Positions 9,294-48,000 of a stretch of 48,874 nt of DNA are shown piece after piece. Position numbers and translations under genes: made by a program. Numbering within the stretch: the first letter of the stretch is position 1; the number at the start of each line of letters is the position of its first letter. The notes under the pieces were generated by a model that was not told the DNA's origin, made no database searches, and was given only the letters and a program-made list of their open reading frames with translations. This DNA is from Candidatus Coproplasma stercoravium (GTDB taxonomy: Bacteria > Bacillota > Clostridia > Christensenellales > Borkfalkiaceae), in contig DVFR01000047.1 of assembly GCA_018713165.1 (NCBI GenBank), positions 1 to 48,874 of the forward strand. The letters run 5' to 3'.

Positions 9294-9610
9294 AAGCTCC
9301 CTTTGTGTAAAGAGGGACGCCTTACCTCGAGCCCCCCTTGTGTAAAGGGGGGAAGTAAAGGGGGGATTGTAAGAGTTATGGTTGTCTGCGGCGCATTCAG
9401 AAATATGGGCAGGCTTTGGTAACGACAAACAATCCCTCAGTCTGAACCTTTCGGTTCAGCCGTCTTGCGTGGCGCAAGGAGTGCAAGCCGCCACGCGGCG
9501 GTCACCGCAAACGCGTTTACATATGCGTTTGCTCATCTCGCATCGGCACGCACAACGGGTGTGTGTTGTACTATGAACTGCCTCGCTCGTCCCTTTGCGC
9601 AAAGGAGCCT
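9294..9610. repeat. Gene-less cassette 4 of the DUF559 repeat family
   Basis: Left end: two CCCTTGTGTAAAGGG hairpins and GGGGGGATTGT (9294-9370). A 59-base middle with no gene follows. The extended right end (9430-9610) starts CAATCCCTCAG, carries the long hairpin repeat (GGTCACCGC ... ATATGCGTTTGCTCATCTC) and ends CCCTTTGCGCAAAGGAGCCT. Middle and flanks match cassette 5 at 14946-15212. No other feature is seen in the gap 9207-9668. Confidence 0.65.
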
Positions 9611-39351: not shown

Positions 39352-39729
39352 AGCCGTGAATTGACAGGTGGGAAAATGTTCTGCGCCACACCTTCCGGCG
39401 CGGAGAAAAAGAGCAACGTTTCCGGCGCATTGCGGCGGGCATATGTCCCGTTCGGCGGCGGGAATTATGCCGTATTGCGGGCGTCGTTTTTCTGCCATCA
39501 GCGAAAAGCGCCTTATGCGGCGCTTTAAAGTTGTGTAATTAGTTGCGCCCGCAACTAATTTTACCCGCCCTGCGGTAAAGCGCAGCGGGCAAAAGCTGCG
39601 CGATATGCGCGTGCGGGGGGGCATCGTCCGCCCTGCGGTAAAATATAAGCGGCGGTAAAATATATTTTGGCGGATATATTTATATAAATAAGGTTTAAAA
39701 AGCCGCCTGTGGCGGCACAGTGGGGTTCT

Positions 39730-40590
39730 ATGAAAACCGTTAAAAAACCTGTAAATAAAAAATACATAATAATTGCGGCGGTGGTGCTGGTACTTGTGGC
39801 AGTGCTTGTCGCCGCATTCCTCGTCGGCTCGCAGCCGCGGTCGGGTTCAGTCTCCGACGAGCTGACCGACGCCGTGCTCCACGAGGAGAAAAAGGTAAAC
39901 CTGTTCGGCTGGGAGGTCAATCCCGCGGTCATTTCGGCGTTCATCGTAACGGCAATTCTGCTGATATTCGCCGTATGCGTGCGCGTGTTCGCCCTGCCCC
40001 GCTTTAAAGAGGTGCCCGGCAAATTCCAGCTCGTCATTGAAAAGCTCGTAGATTTCTTCGACAATATGGCGCGCACCAACAGTCCCCATTCCAACGGCTT
40101 TCTGGGCTGCTACATCTTCAGCGCGGGCTGCTATATCTGCATAGGCACTCTCTTCGAGCTTTTAGGCATTCAGGTGATGGCGACGAACGGCTATCCCGTA
40201 ACGCTCCCCGCCCCGCTCTCCGATATCAACGCGGCGATTGCCATGGGCTTTATGAGCTACCTCGTAATTCTCGTCGGCGGCATAGTAAAGAGCGGCGCGC
40301 GCGGCCTTGGGCTGGCGCTCAAAGAGTTCTCGCTCCCCATCTCCATGAGCTTCCGCTTATTCGGCGCGCTTCTTTCGGGACTGCTCGTCACCGAGCTCGT
40401 CTACTACACGATTTCGCTCAGCATAGTGCTCCCCGTAGTCGTGGGCGTGCTCTTCACCCTTCTGCACGCGCTCATTCAGACGTATGTCCTCGTCGTCCTC
40501 ACCGCAACATACTTCGGCGAGGTTACCGAGCCTAGGGCGCATAGCACGGCAAAGAAGAAGAGGGGCAAAAGGGCGCTCAAGGCGGCGTAA
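39730..40590 (+). CDS. atpB: ATP synthase Fo subunit a
   Basis: 286 residues. The proton-channel helix with the essential arginine is present (PISMSFRLFGALLSGLLV), and LHALIQTYVLVVLTATYFGE closes the domain. An extra N-terminal transmembrane helix (about 10-32, IIIAAVVLVLVAVLVAAFLVG) with a soluble linker precedes the usual start (VNLFGWEVNPAVISAFIVTA), and the tail is basic. ATG at 39730 has GTGGGG upstream; an earlier GTG lacks a site. First gene of the atp operon. Confidence 0.93.
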   Translation: MKTVKKPVNKKYIIIAAVVLVLVAVLVAAFLVGSQPRSGSVSDELTDAVLHEEKKVNLFGWEVNPAVISAFIVTAILLIFAVCVRVFALPRFKEVPGKFQLVIEKLVDFFDNMARTNSPHSNGFLGCYIFSAGCYICIGTLFELLGIQVMATNGYPVTLPAPLSDINAAIAMGFMSYLVILVGGIVKSGARGLGLALKEFSLPISMSFRLFGALLSGLLVTELVYYTISLSIVLPVVVGVLFTLLHALIQTYVLVVLTATYFGEVTEPRAHSTAKKKRGKRALKAA

Positions 40591-40774: not shown

Positions 40775-41248
40775 ATGAAAACTGCAAAGAACGTCATCTC
40801 GATAATAGTCGCCGCAATCGTGGCGCTGTTCGCGTGCGCGGCCATAACCGCCGCCGTTCAGGCAATCGTCGGCACGCCCGTGTCGCAGGAAGTAACGATT
40901 TCGGCGTCTGCCGAAGAGGTTGGGGCAGACGAAGAGGACGGGGCCGCTCTCCTTGCCGATGATGCCACTCCTGCCGACGGTACCCAGAGCGATACGACCC
41001 CCGCTGCCGATACCGAGGCTAACGCGACGAGCGGCAAGGCGATTGCCGCTGGTGTTGCGATAGGACTTGCCGCACTCGGCGGCGCGATAGGCATGGGTCT
41101 TGCCATTGCAAAGGCGTCGGAGGGCATCGCCCGCCAGCCCGAAGCTTCGGGCAATATCCGCTCGACGATGATGCTCGGCCTCGTGTTCATAGAGACCGTC
41201 GTAATTTACGCGCTCATAGTTTCGGTACTGCTCATATTCGTGCTTTAA
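40775..41248 (+). CDS. atpE: ATP synthase Fo subunit c with N-terminal extension
   Basis: 157 residues against the usual 70-90. Residues 88-157 form the normal c hairpin: helix 1 with GLAALGGAIGMGLAIAKASEG, loop ARQPEA, helix 2 with the ion-binding carboxylate Glu140 in LVFIETVVIYALIV. Aligned to Na+-binding c subunits, the Gln of helix 1 is Met107 and the Ser after Glu is Thr141, so proton coupling is more likely. Residues 1-87 add a signal-like hydrophobic helix (8-32) and an acidic Ala/Thr/Asp linker. Whether the extension is cleaved is unknown. Strong ribosome binding site GGAGG. Confidence 0.93.
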   Translation: MKTAKNVISIIVAAIVALFACAAITAAVQAIVGTPVSQEVTISASAEEVGADEEDGAALLADDATPADGTQSDTTPAADTEANATSGKAIAAGVAIGLAALGGAIGMGLAIAKASEGIARQPEASGNIRSTMMLGLVFIETVVIYALIVSVLLIFVL

Positions 41249-41342: not shown

Positions 41343-42056
41343 ATGCCTTTGAATATCGACTGGCAGCAAATATTGCTGCACGTTTTCAACTTTATAATAC
41401 TCGCCGCCGGCCTTACGTTTATTTTATTCAAGCCCGTGCGCAAGTTCATGCGCGAGCGCGAGGAGAAGTATAAAAAGACGGCCGAAGAGCACGCGCAGAA
41501 GAAGGCTGAGATAGAGGCGATGGAACAGGAGCGCAAGGCAAAACTTGCAGGGCTCGACGCCGAGCTCGAATCTCACCGCAAAGAAGTCATAGAAAAAGCC
41601 GAACAGCGCGGCAAAAAGATAGTCGCCGACGCCGAGAGTGAGGCCCGGGACATTCTCGCCGCAGGCAGAAAGCGTTCCGAGGAGGAGCGCGCCGCATACC
41701 TTGCGGGCGCGGGCGGCGAAATTGCCGACATGGTCGTAAAATCTGCCGAAAAACTGCTCGTCGTGGGCAGCTCTCCCGAGAGCGACAGGGCGCTGTACGA
41801 CAGCTATTTAAAGACTGCCGACAAGGACATAACGGTGAGCGGCATATCAAGAGAGTCGAAATCCACCCTTGCCGAGAGGCTCGCGCGCATGTCTTCCCGC
41901 AAGGACGGCGGGGATATAAGCGAAGGCGACGACGTCGCCGAGGTTGTGGGCGAGGCTGCGCTCGCGGCAATGGAGCGCGGCAGGACTGCCGAGAGCGACG
42001 GCGCGGTTTACGACGAATTTTTGAAGAGCGTGAACGGGGGCGGCGATGGAAAGTAA
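41343..42056 (+). CDS. atpF: ATP synthase Fo subunit b with duplicated C-terminal segment
   Basis: 237 residues; b is usually about 160. One N-terminal membrane helix (about 10-29), then a long charged coiled coil (30-125). The normal C-terminal segment EIADMVVKSAEKLL ... SPESDRALYDSYLK (126-159) is followed by a second, gap-free alignable copy, DVAEVVGEAALAAM ... TAESDGAVYDEFLK (197-230), offset 71 residues, with 12 identities in 34. This part of b normally contacts the delta subunit. It overlaps the atpA start by 11 bases. GAGG lies before the ATG. Confidence 0.92.
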   Translation: MPLNIDWQQILLHVFNFIILAAGLTFILFKPVRKFMREREEKYKKTAEEHAQKKAEIEAMEQERKAKLAGLDAELESHRKEVIEKAEQRGKKIVADAESEARDILAAGRKRSEEERAAYLAGAGGEIADMVVKSAEKLLVVGSSPESDRALYDSYLKTADKDITVSGISRESKSTLAERLARMSSRKDGGDISEGDDVAEVVGEAALAAMERGRTAESDGAVYDEFLKSVNGGGDGK

Positions 42057-44073
42057 AAAGAAAGCAGGCGTTGCAAAGCTCTTTTGCATAACCCCTCCCG
42101 GCGCTGAGCAGAGGGAGGGCATAGCCGACTTCCTCGAAAAGAAGTACGGCACGCGCCCCGAAATAGAGATAATAACCGATTCCTCGCTCGTCGGCGGGTT
42201 CCGCCTGGAGTTCGGCGGGGATATATACGACTGGTCGACGAAAGGCCGCGTGGAGAAGCTCAAAGAGAGCATAAAGAGCGCGGCGGCGGTGCCCTCGGGC
42301 GAAGTCAGGCGCGCCGAAGCTCTGCCCGACGTTTCGGCAAAGCTCTTCTGCGTAACTCCCCCCACGGCGGAACAGAGGCGCGGCATAGCCGACTTCCTCG
42401 AAAGGACGTACGGCACCCGCCCCGAAGTCGAGATAATCATCGATAAGTCCGTTGTCGGCGGCTTCCGCTTGGAGTTCGGCGACAACGTTTTCGACTGGTC
42501 GGCGCAGGGCAGGATAAACAGGCTCAAAGAGGACATAAAGTCCTCCGCGGGCGTAACCACGCTTTTGAGGGAGTCGGTCGAAAGCCTCAAAAGCGCGATA
42601 GAGGGCTGGGCAATGCCCCTCGCCGCGCACGAGGCGGGCAAAGTGCTCTCCGTCGGCGACGGAATAGCGCGCGTAGACGGGCTCGACCTCGTCGAATACG
42701 GCGAGATTGTCGCCTTCGAATGCGGCATAAAGGGCATGGTTCAGGAGCTCGGCGAGGACGGCGCGGGCGTAATTCTCTTCGGCAGCGACAGGGAGGTCGA
42801 AGAGGGCAGCGCTGTGTACCGTACGGGCAAAACTGCGGGCGTGCCCGCAGGCGACGGGCTCATAGGCAGGGTGGTCGACGCGCTCGGTTCCCCCATAGAC
42901 GGAGGCGGGGAGATTGCCGCCGACGCCTACATGCCCATCGAAAATCCCGCGCCCGGCATAGTCGACCGCCAGCCGGTAAACAAACCGCTCGAAACGGGCA
43001 TACTTGCAATCGACTCAATGTTCCCCATAGGCAGGGGACAGCGCGAGCTTATAATAGGCGACAGGCAGACGGGCAAGACCACCATCGCCACCGATACCAT
43101 ACTCAACCAGAAGGGCAAGGACGTAATCTGCATATACGTCGCCATAGGGCAGAAGGCAAGCTCGGTTGCGCGCCTTGCGGAGATGCTCCGAAAGCGCGGC
43201 GCGATGGACTACACCATAATCGTGTGCTCCTTTGCAAGCGACGGCGCTTCGTTGCAATATATCGCGCCCTATTCGGGCTGCGCCATGGCCGAGTATTTCA
43301 TGAACAAGGGCAAGGACGTACTTATCATTTACGACGATTTGTCGAAGCACGCAGTCGCATACCGCGCACTGTCGCTCCTTCTCGGCAGGTCGCCCGGGCG
43401 CGAGGCCTATCCCGGCGACGTATTCTATCTTCACTCCCGCCTTCTGGAGCGCGCCGCGCACCTCTCCGATGAGCGCGGCGGCGGTTCGATAACCGCGCTT
43501 CCCATAGTCGAAACGCAGGCGGGCGACATATCGGCATATATCCCTACTAATATAATTTCCATAACCGACGGTCAGATTTTCCTTGCGGGCGACCTGTTCT
43601 TCTCCGGTCAGCGCCCCGCGGTAAACGTCGGAATCTCCGTATCCCGCGTCGGCGGCGACGCGCAGACCAAGGCGATGAAGTCCACGGCGGGGCCTCTGCG
43701 CCTCGACCTCGCGCAGTACAGGGAGATGGAGGTGTTCATGCAGTTCTCCTCCGACCTCGACGAGGCTACGAAGAAGATGCTGTTCTACGGCAAGAGCCTT
43801 ATGATGCTTTTAAGGCAGCCGCAGGCGCACCCTCTGCAAATGTACCGGCAGGTGCTTCTGCTTGCGGCGGCGCTCGGCGGCGGAATGACCGCCGTCCGTC
43901 CCGACGATATTCCCGATTTCAAGGAAAAACTGCTCGCCTATTTCGACGAATCCGAACAGGAGCTCTGCGACGAAGTCAAAAAGGGCGAAAAGCTCTCGGG
44001 CGAATTAAAGACGAAGATTGTGGAATCCGCCAAAGCGTTTGCCGAAAAGTACGCCGCAAAATACGGCGCGTAA
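42046..44073 (+). CDS. atpA: ATP synthase F1 alpha subunit fused to two delta (OSCP) C-terminal domains
   Basis: 675 residues; alpha is usually about 500. Residues 171-675 form a complete alpha: VLSVGDGIARVDGLD, P-loop GDRQTGKT (338-345), arginine finger in ISVSRVGGDAQTKAMK. Residues 10-82 and 98-170 are two copies (52 of 73 positions identical, offset 88) of the delta/OSCP C-terminal fold. Each has KLFC(I/V)TPP, EQR.GIADFLE, then D-S-(L/V)-VGGFRLEFG and DWS..GR. That second half matches the VDKSVMAGV..RAGD...DGSVRGRLERL pattern of delta. The delta N-terminal domain is not present. The start ATG lies inside atpF. No independent atpH occurs in the operon. Confidence 0.93.
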   Translation: MESKKKAGVAKLFCITPPGAEQREGIADFLEKKYGTRPEIEIITDSSLVGGFRLEFGGDIYDWSTKGRVEKLKESIKSAAAVPSGEVRRAEALPDVSAKLFCVTPPTAEQRRGIADFLERTYGTRPEVEIIIDKSVVGGFRLEFGDNVFDWSAQGRINRLKEDIKSSAGVTTLLRESVESLKSAIEGWAMPLAAHEAGKVLSVGDGIARVDGLDLVEYGEIVAFECGIKGMVQELGEDGAGVILFGSDREVEEGSAVYRTGKTAGVPAGDGLIGRVVDALGSPIDGGGEIAADAYMPIENPAPGIVDRQPVNKPLETGILAIDSMFPIGRGQRELIIGDRQTGKTTIATDTILNQKGKDVICIYVAIGQKASSVARLAEMLRKRGAMDYTIIVCSFASDGASLQYIAPYSGCAMAEYFMNKGKDVLIIYDDLSKHAVAYRALSLLLGRSPGREAYPGDVFYLHSRLLERAAHLSDERGGGSITALPIVETQAGDISAYIPTNIISITDGQIFLAGDLFFSGQRPAVNVGISVSRVGGDAQTKAMKSTAGPLRLDLAQYREMEVFMQFSSDLDEATKKMLFYGKSLMMLLRQPQAHPLQMYRQVLLLAAALGGGMTAVRPDDIPDFKEKLLAYFDESEQELCDEVKKGEKLSGELKTKIVESAKAFAEKYAAKYGA

Positions 44074-44078
44074 CGCGG

Positions 44079-44260
44079 CAATCCCTCCGTCACGGCTGCA
44101 TTTTATTTCGCCGTGCCATTCTCATAGGGCGTAAGGACAGCGCCCTATTCGGTCACCGCAAACGCGGGGACATATGCGTTTGCTCATCTCACATTGCCCA
44201 AACAGCGGGTGTCCGCTGTTTGGAGAACTGCAATGTTCGACCCTCTGCACAAGGGAGCCT
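44079..44260. repeat. Extended right-end repeat inside the atp operon
   Basis: Starts CAATCCCTCCG six bases after the atpA stop. It carries GGTCACCGCAAACGCG, ATATGCGTTTGCTCATCTC and stem CAAACAGCGG/CCGCTGTTTG, and ends CTGCACAAGGGAGCCT: nearly the same 3' half as the one in cassette 5. More repeat fragments, including a degraded TGTCATTTCGA half at 44403 and CCTCCCTTTAGGCAAGGGAGG at 44491, fill the gap up to 44540. Confidence 0.65.
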
Positions 44261-44540
44261 TTAATGCGGAATAGATTTCTCCGTTTCGCCTTCGGCTTAG
44301 TTTGCGGTTTCCCAAAGGGAGCCCTCCGCAAAGTGTCGTCGGCTTCGCCTCATCTGCCGTTTCCCAAATGGGAGTCCCTCGGCAGAGCGCGCTTCGCCTC
44401 CTCGCGCGAAATGACAATATTTTTTTAAAATGAATCGCGTGCGCAAGCAGGGTTTCTCGCAGCAAAGTTTAGCGCAAATCCCCCCGTCACGCCTCCCTTT
44501 AGGCAAGGGAGGCAAGTCGATTTGAGCGAACTTATAAAAT

Positions 44541-44730
44541 AATTTAAGTCGCAAGGCGGCTATGCCGCCGCAGCAGGCCCCAATTTGCGCATACCTGCGC
44601 CTGAGCAGGGTGAATTTGCGCAATTATGTGCTTCGTGGGCCCTTTAGATTGCGCAAAGAGGGGCTGGCCCCTTAAAGTCACGGAAATTGTCGCGCGCGGC
44701 CCGCGCGAGAATTTCGTGAACAAGGTAATT
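44541..44730 (+). promoter_or_regulatory. Structured leader upstream of atpG
   Basis: Same order of stems and linkers as before greA: AAGTCGCAA, GGCGG/CCGCC (44555-44569), GCAGCAGG...CAATTTGCGCATAC, GTGAATT, TTGCGCAAT/ATTGCGCAA (44616-44656), GGGGC/GCCCC (44660-44671), linker TCACG, GAAATT/AATTTC (44683-44715). Three of the four stems differ in sequence from greA's yet still pair. No independent promoter seen. Confidence 0.6.
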
Positions 44731-44736
44731 TTTTCT

Positions 44737-47020
<2,284 letters not shown>

Positions 47021-47574: not shown

Positions 47575-48000
47575 ATGAACACATTTAAAGTGCACCTTTT
47601 AAGTTCCAACCGTACCTTTTACGAGGGCGAGTGCGAGAGCCTCGTCATTCCCGCCGTAGACGGGCAGTACGGCGTAATGGCGGGGCACAGCAACACCATA
47701 ACGGCGCTCGTCCCCGGCAAACTCACCTTCCGCGTTCCCGGCAAGGAGGAGCAGGAGGCGGCGGTATCTTCGGGGATAATGAAGATTGAGGACAACGACG
47801 TTCTCGTGCTTGCCGATTCCATTCTCCGTCCCGACGAGATTGACGAAGAGCGCGCCGAGCGCGAAGCCGCCGACGCAAGGGAGGCAATGCTGCAAAAGCT
47901 TGGCCGCCAGGAGTACCTCTCGGTGCAGGCACAGCTTGCAAGGGCCATCAATAAACTCAAAATACGCCGCTCGTATCTCCGCGGCGGCAGAAGACGCTGA
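47575..48000 (+). CDS. atpC: ATP synthase F1 epsilon subunit
   Basis: 141 residues. N-terminal beta-sandwich (about 1-85, VHLLSSNRTFYEGECESLVIPAVDGQYGVMAGHSNTITAL) and C-terminal helix pair (about 90-141, ERAEREAADAREAM...QAQLARAINKLKIRR). Connects gamma to the c-ring and can inhibit hydrolysis. Ribosome binding site AAGGAAGG. Last gene of the operon, separated from atpD by 554 bases of repeats; terminator follows. Confidence 0.95.
   Translation: MNTFKVHLLSSNRTFYEGECESLVIPAVDGQYGVMAGHSNTITALVPGKLTFRVPGKEEQEAAVSSGIMKIEDNDVLVLADSILRPDEIDEERAEREAADAREAMLQKLGRQEYLSVQAQLARAINKLKIRRSYLRGGRRR

Follow-up and report, generated by a model that had tools for sequence, protein, structure and literature searches.

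A candidate F-type ATP synthase with tandem delta C-terminal domains on alpha and a duplicated b tail in Candidatus Coproplasma stercoravium

Introduction

It is treated as a rule that an F-type ATP synthase has a single peripheral stalk and a single a subunit. In ordinary enzymes the N-terminal domain of the delta subunit (delta-N) sits on the threefold axis of alpha3beta3, and in the mycobacterial b-delta the delta part is fused to b, keeps delta-N and is present once per enzyme. Here we describe an ATP synthase operon of Candidatus Coproplasma stercoravium (assembly GCA_018713165.1) whose alpha subunit begins with two tandem copies of the delta C-terminal domain (delta-C). The operon lies on contig DVFR01000047.1, positions 1 to 48,874, and this whole stretch of 48,874 nucleotides is called the window below. 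Our analysis followed up an earlier reading of the window made from its letters alone (the sequence-only reading), which had pointed to the fused alpha.

Among the closest described systems is an engineered Bacillus PS3 FoF1 from which delta-N was removed and whose delta-C was fused to alpha. According to the main text of Ueno et al. (2025, PMC12229609), delta-N limits the enzyme to one stalk, and the engineered deltaDeltaN-alpha enzyme forms up to three b2-a stalks and has an H+/ATP ratio of 5.8 compared with 3.0. By cryo-electron microscopy (cryo-EM), 0, 1, 2 and 3 stalks were seen there in 15, 51, 26 and 8% of particles, fewer than by gel, a shortfall that the authors explain by stalks being lost on the grid. 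The same text names natural single fusions (Acidaminococcus fermentans; UniProt G4Q3K6 and A0A1I2C5T3) and suggests that nature may also break the one-stalk rule. The window's alpha resembles this type in its N-terminal delta-C, with no delta-N found in a genome that is 94% complete. It differs in having two delta-C per alpha instead of one, and in a doubled b tail, none being described in the main text of PMC12229609. A second relative is the N-type ATPase, described in the part of PMC5706428 used here as having a longer b and no delta gene.

Results

Two delta C-terminal domains precede a complete alpha

The fused alpha is encoded by an open reading frame of 675 amino acids (aa) at 42046-44073 (plus strand, like all features given below). 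Its residues 10-82 and 98-170 are identical at 52 of 73 positions, which reproduces the earlier count, and the underlying DNA at 166 of 219; for the protein, the maximum in 10,000 shuffles was 16 identities, which rules out a chance repeat. The Pfam OSCP profile (PF00213) matches the protein in two stretches (E 1.6e-22), best at profile positions 98-171 of 172, and a profile search of the genome returned 42052-42270 (E 6.9e-10) and 42316-42534 (E 2.9e-11), each covering profile positions 98-171 and each over the cut-off. Both repeats are the C-terminal domain of OSCP/delta only. By PF00213 and the AlphaFold2 (AF2) model, the first domain (deltaC1) occupies 42070..42285 (alpha residues ~9-80). 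It is followed by a linker at 42286..42333 (residues ~81-96), delimited by the model's per-residue confidence (pLDDT) and by the ratio of non-synonymous to synonymous substitutions (dN/dS), and by the second domain (deltaC2) at 42334..42549 (residues ~97-168), which adjoins the N-terminal helix of alpha. Our own delta-C hidden Markov model (HMM), whose seed includes both sequences, matches them at 1e-25 and 2e-25. A complete F1 alpha follows at 42568..44055 (residues 175-670; TIGR00962, E 2.7e-219, over the cut-off), as the sequence-only reading had claimed.

That reading had also noted the lack of delta-N and of a separate delta gene, and our searches agree with it. Profile scans of the window's proteins found no delta gene in the operon, and an OSCP search of the genome (1.70 Mb) gave no match at E<=10 beyond the two alpha stretches, which rules out a separate delta elsewhere at that threshold in an assembly that is 94% complete. 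Instead of a delta subunit with N- and C-domains, only OSCP positions 98-171 were found, twice and both times inside alpha. Furthermore, in 13 genomes of the same genus with such matches, the window's included, no OSCP match over the cut-off lay outside the fused frame, which measures 607-686 aa.

Structure prediction leads to the same assignment, and the earlier suggestion to compare the alpha N-terminus with OSCP/delta by profile and by structure thus ended in a delta-C match by both. An AF2 model of alpha residues 1-190, built from an alignment of 21 sequences (mean pLDDT 75.6, predicted template modelling score (pTM) 0.37), contains two modules that each run strand, helix, three strands, helix; pLDDT is 84-90 over most of each module and lower in the last helix. 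In deltaC1 the predicted strands (E) and helices (H) are E9-14, H20-34, E39-44, E52-56, E59-62 and H65-79, and the linker between the modules is disordered in the model (pLDDT <50 at residues 80-92). ATP synthase entries hold all of the first 41 places of a Foldseek search against the PDB, headed by the Bacillus PS3 delta (6n2y_I, E 1.8e-4). Matches of 64-78 columns fit at 1.6-4 A, among them the E. coli delta 6oqr_W at 1.8 A over 68 columns. In a comparison of sequence profiles with the PDB, the best chain was 9jc1_I of the engineered deltaDeltaN-alpha enzyme (E 2.7e-8, profile positions 98-185), the match running from delta-C into the N-terminal part of alpha.

The delta-binding tail of b is duplicated as well

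The sequence-only reading overlooked that the doubled delta-C is accompanied by a duplicated C-terminus of b. The b gene (41343..42056; PF00430, E 9.2e-11), whose product was aligned in a set of 23 sequences with the window's included, encodes 237 aa from the start conserved in its kin, or 251 aa from 41301, and overlaps the start of alpha. Tail 1 (41706..41822, residues 122-160 of 237) stands in the register of a normal b C-terminus, and tail 2, the extra copy, lies at 41925..42035 (residues 195-231 of 237). A comparison by hhalign related the two tails to each other (E 1.4e-9) and to normal b tails (tail 1 E 2e-5, tail 2 E 1.5e-5), compared with E 0.045-0.48 for four coiled-coil control segments, one of which shares two columns with tail 1. 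A linker segment, which has nine columns in common with tail 1, gave E 3.4e-4 when compared with that tail and 0.42 when compared with normal tails. Tail 2 is predicted at low confidence to form a helix pair (196-213 and 216-231). These comparisons indicate that the delta-binding C-terminus of b is duplicated. In the window's clade b measures 228-242 aa, and b subunits with one tail or none measure 142-188 aa, except the b-deltaC of locus L129.

A tail HMM matched tail 1 of the window's b at 2e-20 and tail 2 at 6e-19; both are in its seed, and matches to seed tails arise by construction because the HMM was built from them and from normal tails. Its cut-off (i-E <=0.05) was reached by 2 hits in 980 shuffled b sequences and by none at 1e-3. 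Over 86 distinct operons it found two tails in 26, one in 50 and none in 10. Every double-deltaC operon whose b was examined has two tails (20/20; the b of L077 was not examined). Six of the other 66 also have two: L080, L081 and L082 of the same clade, L083, L114 and L122. For L122 (genome G145), both tails were also matched by a normal-tail HMM built without it (4e-11 and 2e-14). In L083 and L114, inspection by eye suggests that part of the b coiled coil is also repeated. Doubled b tails hence occur without doubled delta-C, and the converse on alpha was not seen among the operons examined. A strict coupling between the numbers of delta-C and of b tails is ruled out by seven exceptions among the 86 operons.

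Distribution within the genus and selection on the copies

Searching related genomes for the same fusion, as had been proposed, yielded 20 further loci (L060-L079) with two delta-C on alpha. With the window these make 21 distinct double-deltaC alphas from many isolates, which rules out an assembly artefact. A scan of genome contigs gave 30 loci, five named Candidatus Coproplasma species among them; the window's GTDB genus includes Candidatus Coproplasma, and Candidatus Coproplasma avistercoris (L063) shares its alpha and b with G033, which is one of the genomes in that genus. The double-deltaC enzymes thus come from gut bacteria that are uncultured. In the tree of alphas the double-deltaC sequences fall in one clade, which also holds the three single-deltaC alphas L080-L082. 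Two delta-C are kept in 21 of the 24 clade operons, and two b tails in all 23 examined. An atpA was found in 17 of 61 genomes sampled from the genus (frames of 606-686 aa, 15 at >=653 and 2 at 606-607). The remaining 44, which include 29 of the 40 of best quality, gave no match to atpA at E<=1e-60, so that an F-type ATPase may be missing from much of the genus.

From 17 close pairs chosen, 10-17 of them scored per region, the median dN/dS was 0.149 for deltaC1 and 0.159 for deltaC2 (17 pairs each), 0.498 for the linker between them (10 pairs) and 0.096 for alpha. In b it was 0.098 for the coiled coil, 0.102 for tail 1, 0.104 for tail 2 and 0.43 for the linker between the tails. These figures are rough because the median dS was 0.66-1.44. 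Judged from such substitution ratios, both delta-C copies and both b tails are under purifying selection, and the linkers much less. Among 14 positions conserved in 60 single delta-C from outside the clade, each of the two copies retains the same 12 at 86-100%. Copies 1 and 2 are 60% identical within a genome and 54% across genomes, the within-genome pair being the closer in 20 of 21 cases, which points to sequence exchange between the copies.

A series of arrangements in the GTDB order

We sampled 297 genomes of the order, of which 145 had an OSCP match at E<=0.001; 144 of these were placed by hand, by frame length, among the matches listed. Detailed reading covered part of the order's loci, and a stop occurs in some of the frames listed. 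The match lies on an alpha-length frame in 83 genomes, on a separate delta-C-only frame (71-136 aa) in 35, on a full-length delta in 24 and elsewhere in 4, with G071 and G311 counted both as fused and as full-length. Delta-C on an alpha-length frame is hence common in the order (83/145 sampled genomes with an OSCP match). Two OSCP matches on an alpha-length frame occurred, among the matches listed, only in G000, G028 and G291, and two on a separate 136-aa frame in G173. The separate frame of G292, whose genus is otherwise fused among its listed members, may be a broken frame. In a sample of the phylum, 330 of 398 genomes had an OSCP match; the best matches listed look full-length and give no count of fusions.

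Further variants were found among these loci. L084, L088 and L089 carry delta-N as well as delta-C on alpha (OSCP from 23-25 to 171-172), which by coding would give three delta-N per enzyme. In L095 (G239), L096 (G330) and L097 (G311), all of the order's family f11, a b-like region, one delta-C and alpha are joined in one chain of 746-791 aa. The b-like region of L096 is matched by PF00430 (E 3.8e-8) and is followed by OSCP and then alpha; that of L095 and L097, which have no Pfam b match at E<=0.01, was recognised by eye. A separate b frame stands beside the chain in L095 and L096, and G311 also has a full-length delta elsewhere. Such a chain would put a membrane anchor on each alpha, and the coding of L096 would imply three anchors per F1. 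In a tree of 87 alphas, made by a quick method and rooted on a long outgroup branch, alphas with a separate delta-C are scattered among those with a fused one, with at least 5 forced changes for the separate state, which indicates that fusion, fission or gene transfer took place repeatedly.

The operon and its surroundings

All seven encoded F1Fo subunits stand in the usual order, a-c-b-alpha-gamma-beta-epsilon. Besides b and alpha these are the a subunit (atpB, 39709..40590; PF00119, E 9e-20), the c subunit (atpE, 40775..41248; PF00137 at residues 90-153, E 1.1e-17), gamma (44737..45642, with the frame open from 44626; PF00231, E 3e-83), beta (45635..47020; TIGR01039, E 2.4e-238) and epsilon (47575..48000; TIGR01216, E 5.8e-27). 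The operon holds one a gene; no genome-wide search for a second was made. The genome has one atpA and an RnfC, and a V/A-type E subunit gave no match in it. Such a set would suit a cell that has an Rnf ion pump and a single rotary enzyme, as context and not as proof.

The c subunit, which by its ion-site motifs we take to be of the proton type, has an N-terminal extension of ~80 residues that looks by eye like a signal peptide followed by an acidic part, before the usual hairpin. By eye, such an extension is present in 20 of the 26 clade I c subunits printed (26 of the 40 clade I rows), the window's included. It is absent from L084-L089, and beyond clade I most of the c rows printed show either a short leader or no extension. 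The gap between alpha and gamma (44080-44620) is a mosaic of dispersed repeats. At E<=0.001 the genome holds 56 matches to it, counting the gap itself; five of the others lie within the window, at 9499, 14846, 15102, 19676 and 19847.

Discussion

The sequence-only reading knew of no such arrangement. For one delta-C on alpha this did not stand, since that fusion is already published in the main text of PMC12229609 and is common in the order; for the doubling it did, and the doubling is the new part. Tandem delta-C on alpha with matching b tails was not seen among the open-access papers listed by our searches, of which PMC12229609 alone was seen to deal directly with delta-alpha fusion. The locus is like the N-type ATPase in having no delta gene and a delta-C-like domain on another subunit, and TIGR03321 positions 189-245 match the alpha repeats (E 1.8e-7). 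It is unlike it in that the domain stands on alpha and not on b, and in that its gene order differs from that of L129, an N-type operon by layout. No OSCP was among the 7 Pfam families listed for the window's b, which ends in a second tail instead of a delta-like domain, and among the best 25 of 33 families TIGR03321 matched this b best at positions 2-137 of 246. The window's alpha scores 601.3 bits against TIGR03324 (alt_F1F0), below the cut-off of 750.5, which rules out an N-ATPase identity. With the mycobacterial b-delta (PDB 7jg5_d) the locus shares a delta fused to another stator subunit, the delta part matching in sequence and fold, but its delta-C is on alpha, not b. Compared with the canonical bacterial F1Fo, no delta was found in the genome, and the coding would give six delta-C and no delta-N per alpha3beta3. 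The sequence-only reading reasonably concluded that this enzyme needs a peripheral stalk of another construction.

Our preferred reading, which we hold at a probability of roughly 0.5, is an F-type ATP synthase with a dismantled delta, in which the stalk would dock at two points and several stalks would be possible. Delta-N is gone, every alpha begins with two tandem copies of the delta-C that grips the stalk, and b carries a second copy of its own delta-binding tail. As in the engineered enzyme, tail 1 would be gripped by deltaC2, which adjoins alpha; tail 2 would go to deltaC1. This would fix the stalk in two places and compensate for the hold that went with delta-N. Because all three alphas carry the docking module, as many as three b2-a stalks might form, and several stalks would raise the ion/ATP ratio at low proton-motive force. 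More specifically, two-domain docks might bind a two-tailed b2 at two points in a natural multi-stalk enzyme, keeping two to three stalks with their a subunits stable and making ATP at proton-motive forces that would not suffice for ordinary enzymes; this is a possibility that we put forward tentatively.

Several observations weigh against this reading. The genome searched for delta is 94% complete and in 49 contigs. Six operons combine one delta-C with two b tails, and L090 (G173) has two delta-C, the first truncated, on its separate 136-aa frame and a single b tail. Moreover, the pairing of delta-C with b tails is not an independent correlation because the doubles all belong to one clade and count as one event. 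Of the 14 conserved delta-C positions, the two copies have both lost one and conserve another less strongly. The match to 6n2y_I has a root-mean-square deviation of 14.2 A over 98 columns and spans more than one module; pTM is low in the AF2 models (0.37 and 0.35), which are less certain in the final helix of either delta-C and reach a pLDDT of about 46-66 in b tail 2. Furthermore, we infer the stoichiometry, the binding and the ion/ATP ratio from sequence and precedent.

The main rival keeps a single stalk: the delta-C of two to three neighbouring alphas would jointly grip one b2 with long doubled tails, a firmer hold that would replace delta-N without extra stalks. The six operons with a doubled b tail and one delta-C per alpha are expected if one b reaches several alphas, the linkers are long and variable, and the operon has its one a gene. 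Nevertheless, we consider a single stalk less likely, given that the engineered enzyme with one delta-C per alpha assembled two and three stalks by the main text of PMC12229609, and that the L096 alpha chain with its own b-like region is hard to fit, although it belongs to another lineage. DeltaC1 could also stand off b, taking the place of delta-N and bridging the three alphas atop F1, for example via the delta-C of its neighbours. The ring of alphas may need a cap with delta-N not found, and the flexible linker would tether deltaC1 there; but the conserved positions of deltaC2 are kept in deltaC1 too, the second tail of b makes a match for it, and single-deltaC kin as well as the engineered enzyme, as far as its main text tells, do without such a cap, which makes this role unlikely.

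Finally, the second copies might be near-neutral by-products of recombination between repeats that add nothing to the enzyme. The three of 24 clade operons with one delta-C all fall among the doubles on the tree (supports 89-94 without a star), and the copies of the same genome seem to exchange sequence (closer in 20/21 cases), as such a process would have it. We regard it as quite improbable, since dN/dS is 0.10-0.16 in the delta-C copies and b tails against 0.43-0.50 in the linkers and since the two delta-C (21/24) and the two b tails (23/23) are kept.

If the multi-stalk version of our preferred reading is true, nature would by this doubling have overcome the poor retention of stalks in the engineered enzyme with its single dock. 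The doubled dock and the doubled b tail together offer a direct candidate, open to testing, for an enzyme with several stalks or several grips that is stable. Overall, the order holds a natural design series, from a full delta over delta-C alone, one or two delta-C on alpha, and delta-N with delta-C on alpha, to the b-deltaC-alpha chain. If natural enzymes differ in their number of stalks, an H+/ATP ratio derived for such bacteria solely from the size of the c-ring would be incorrect.

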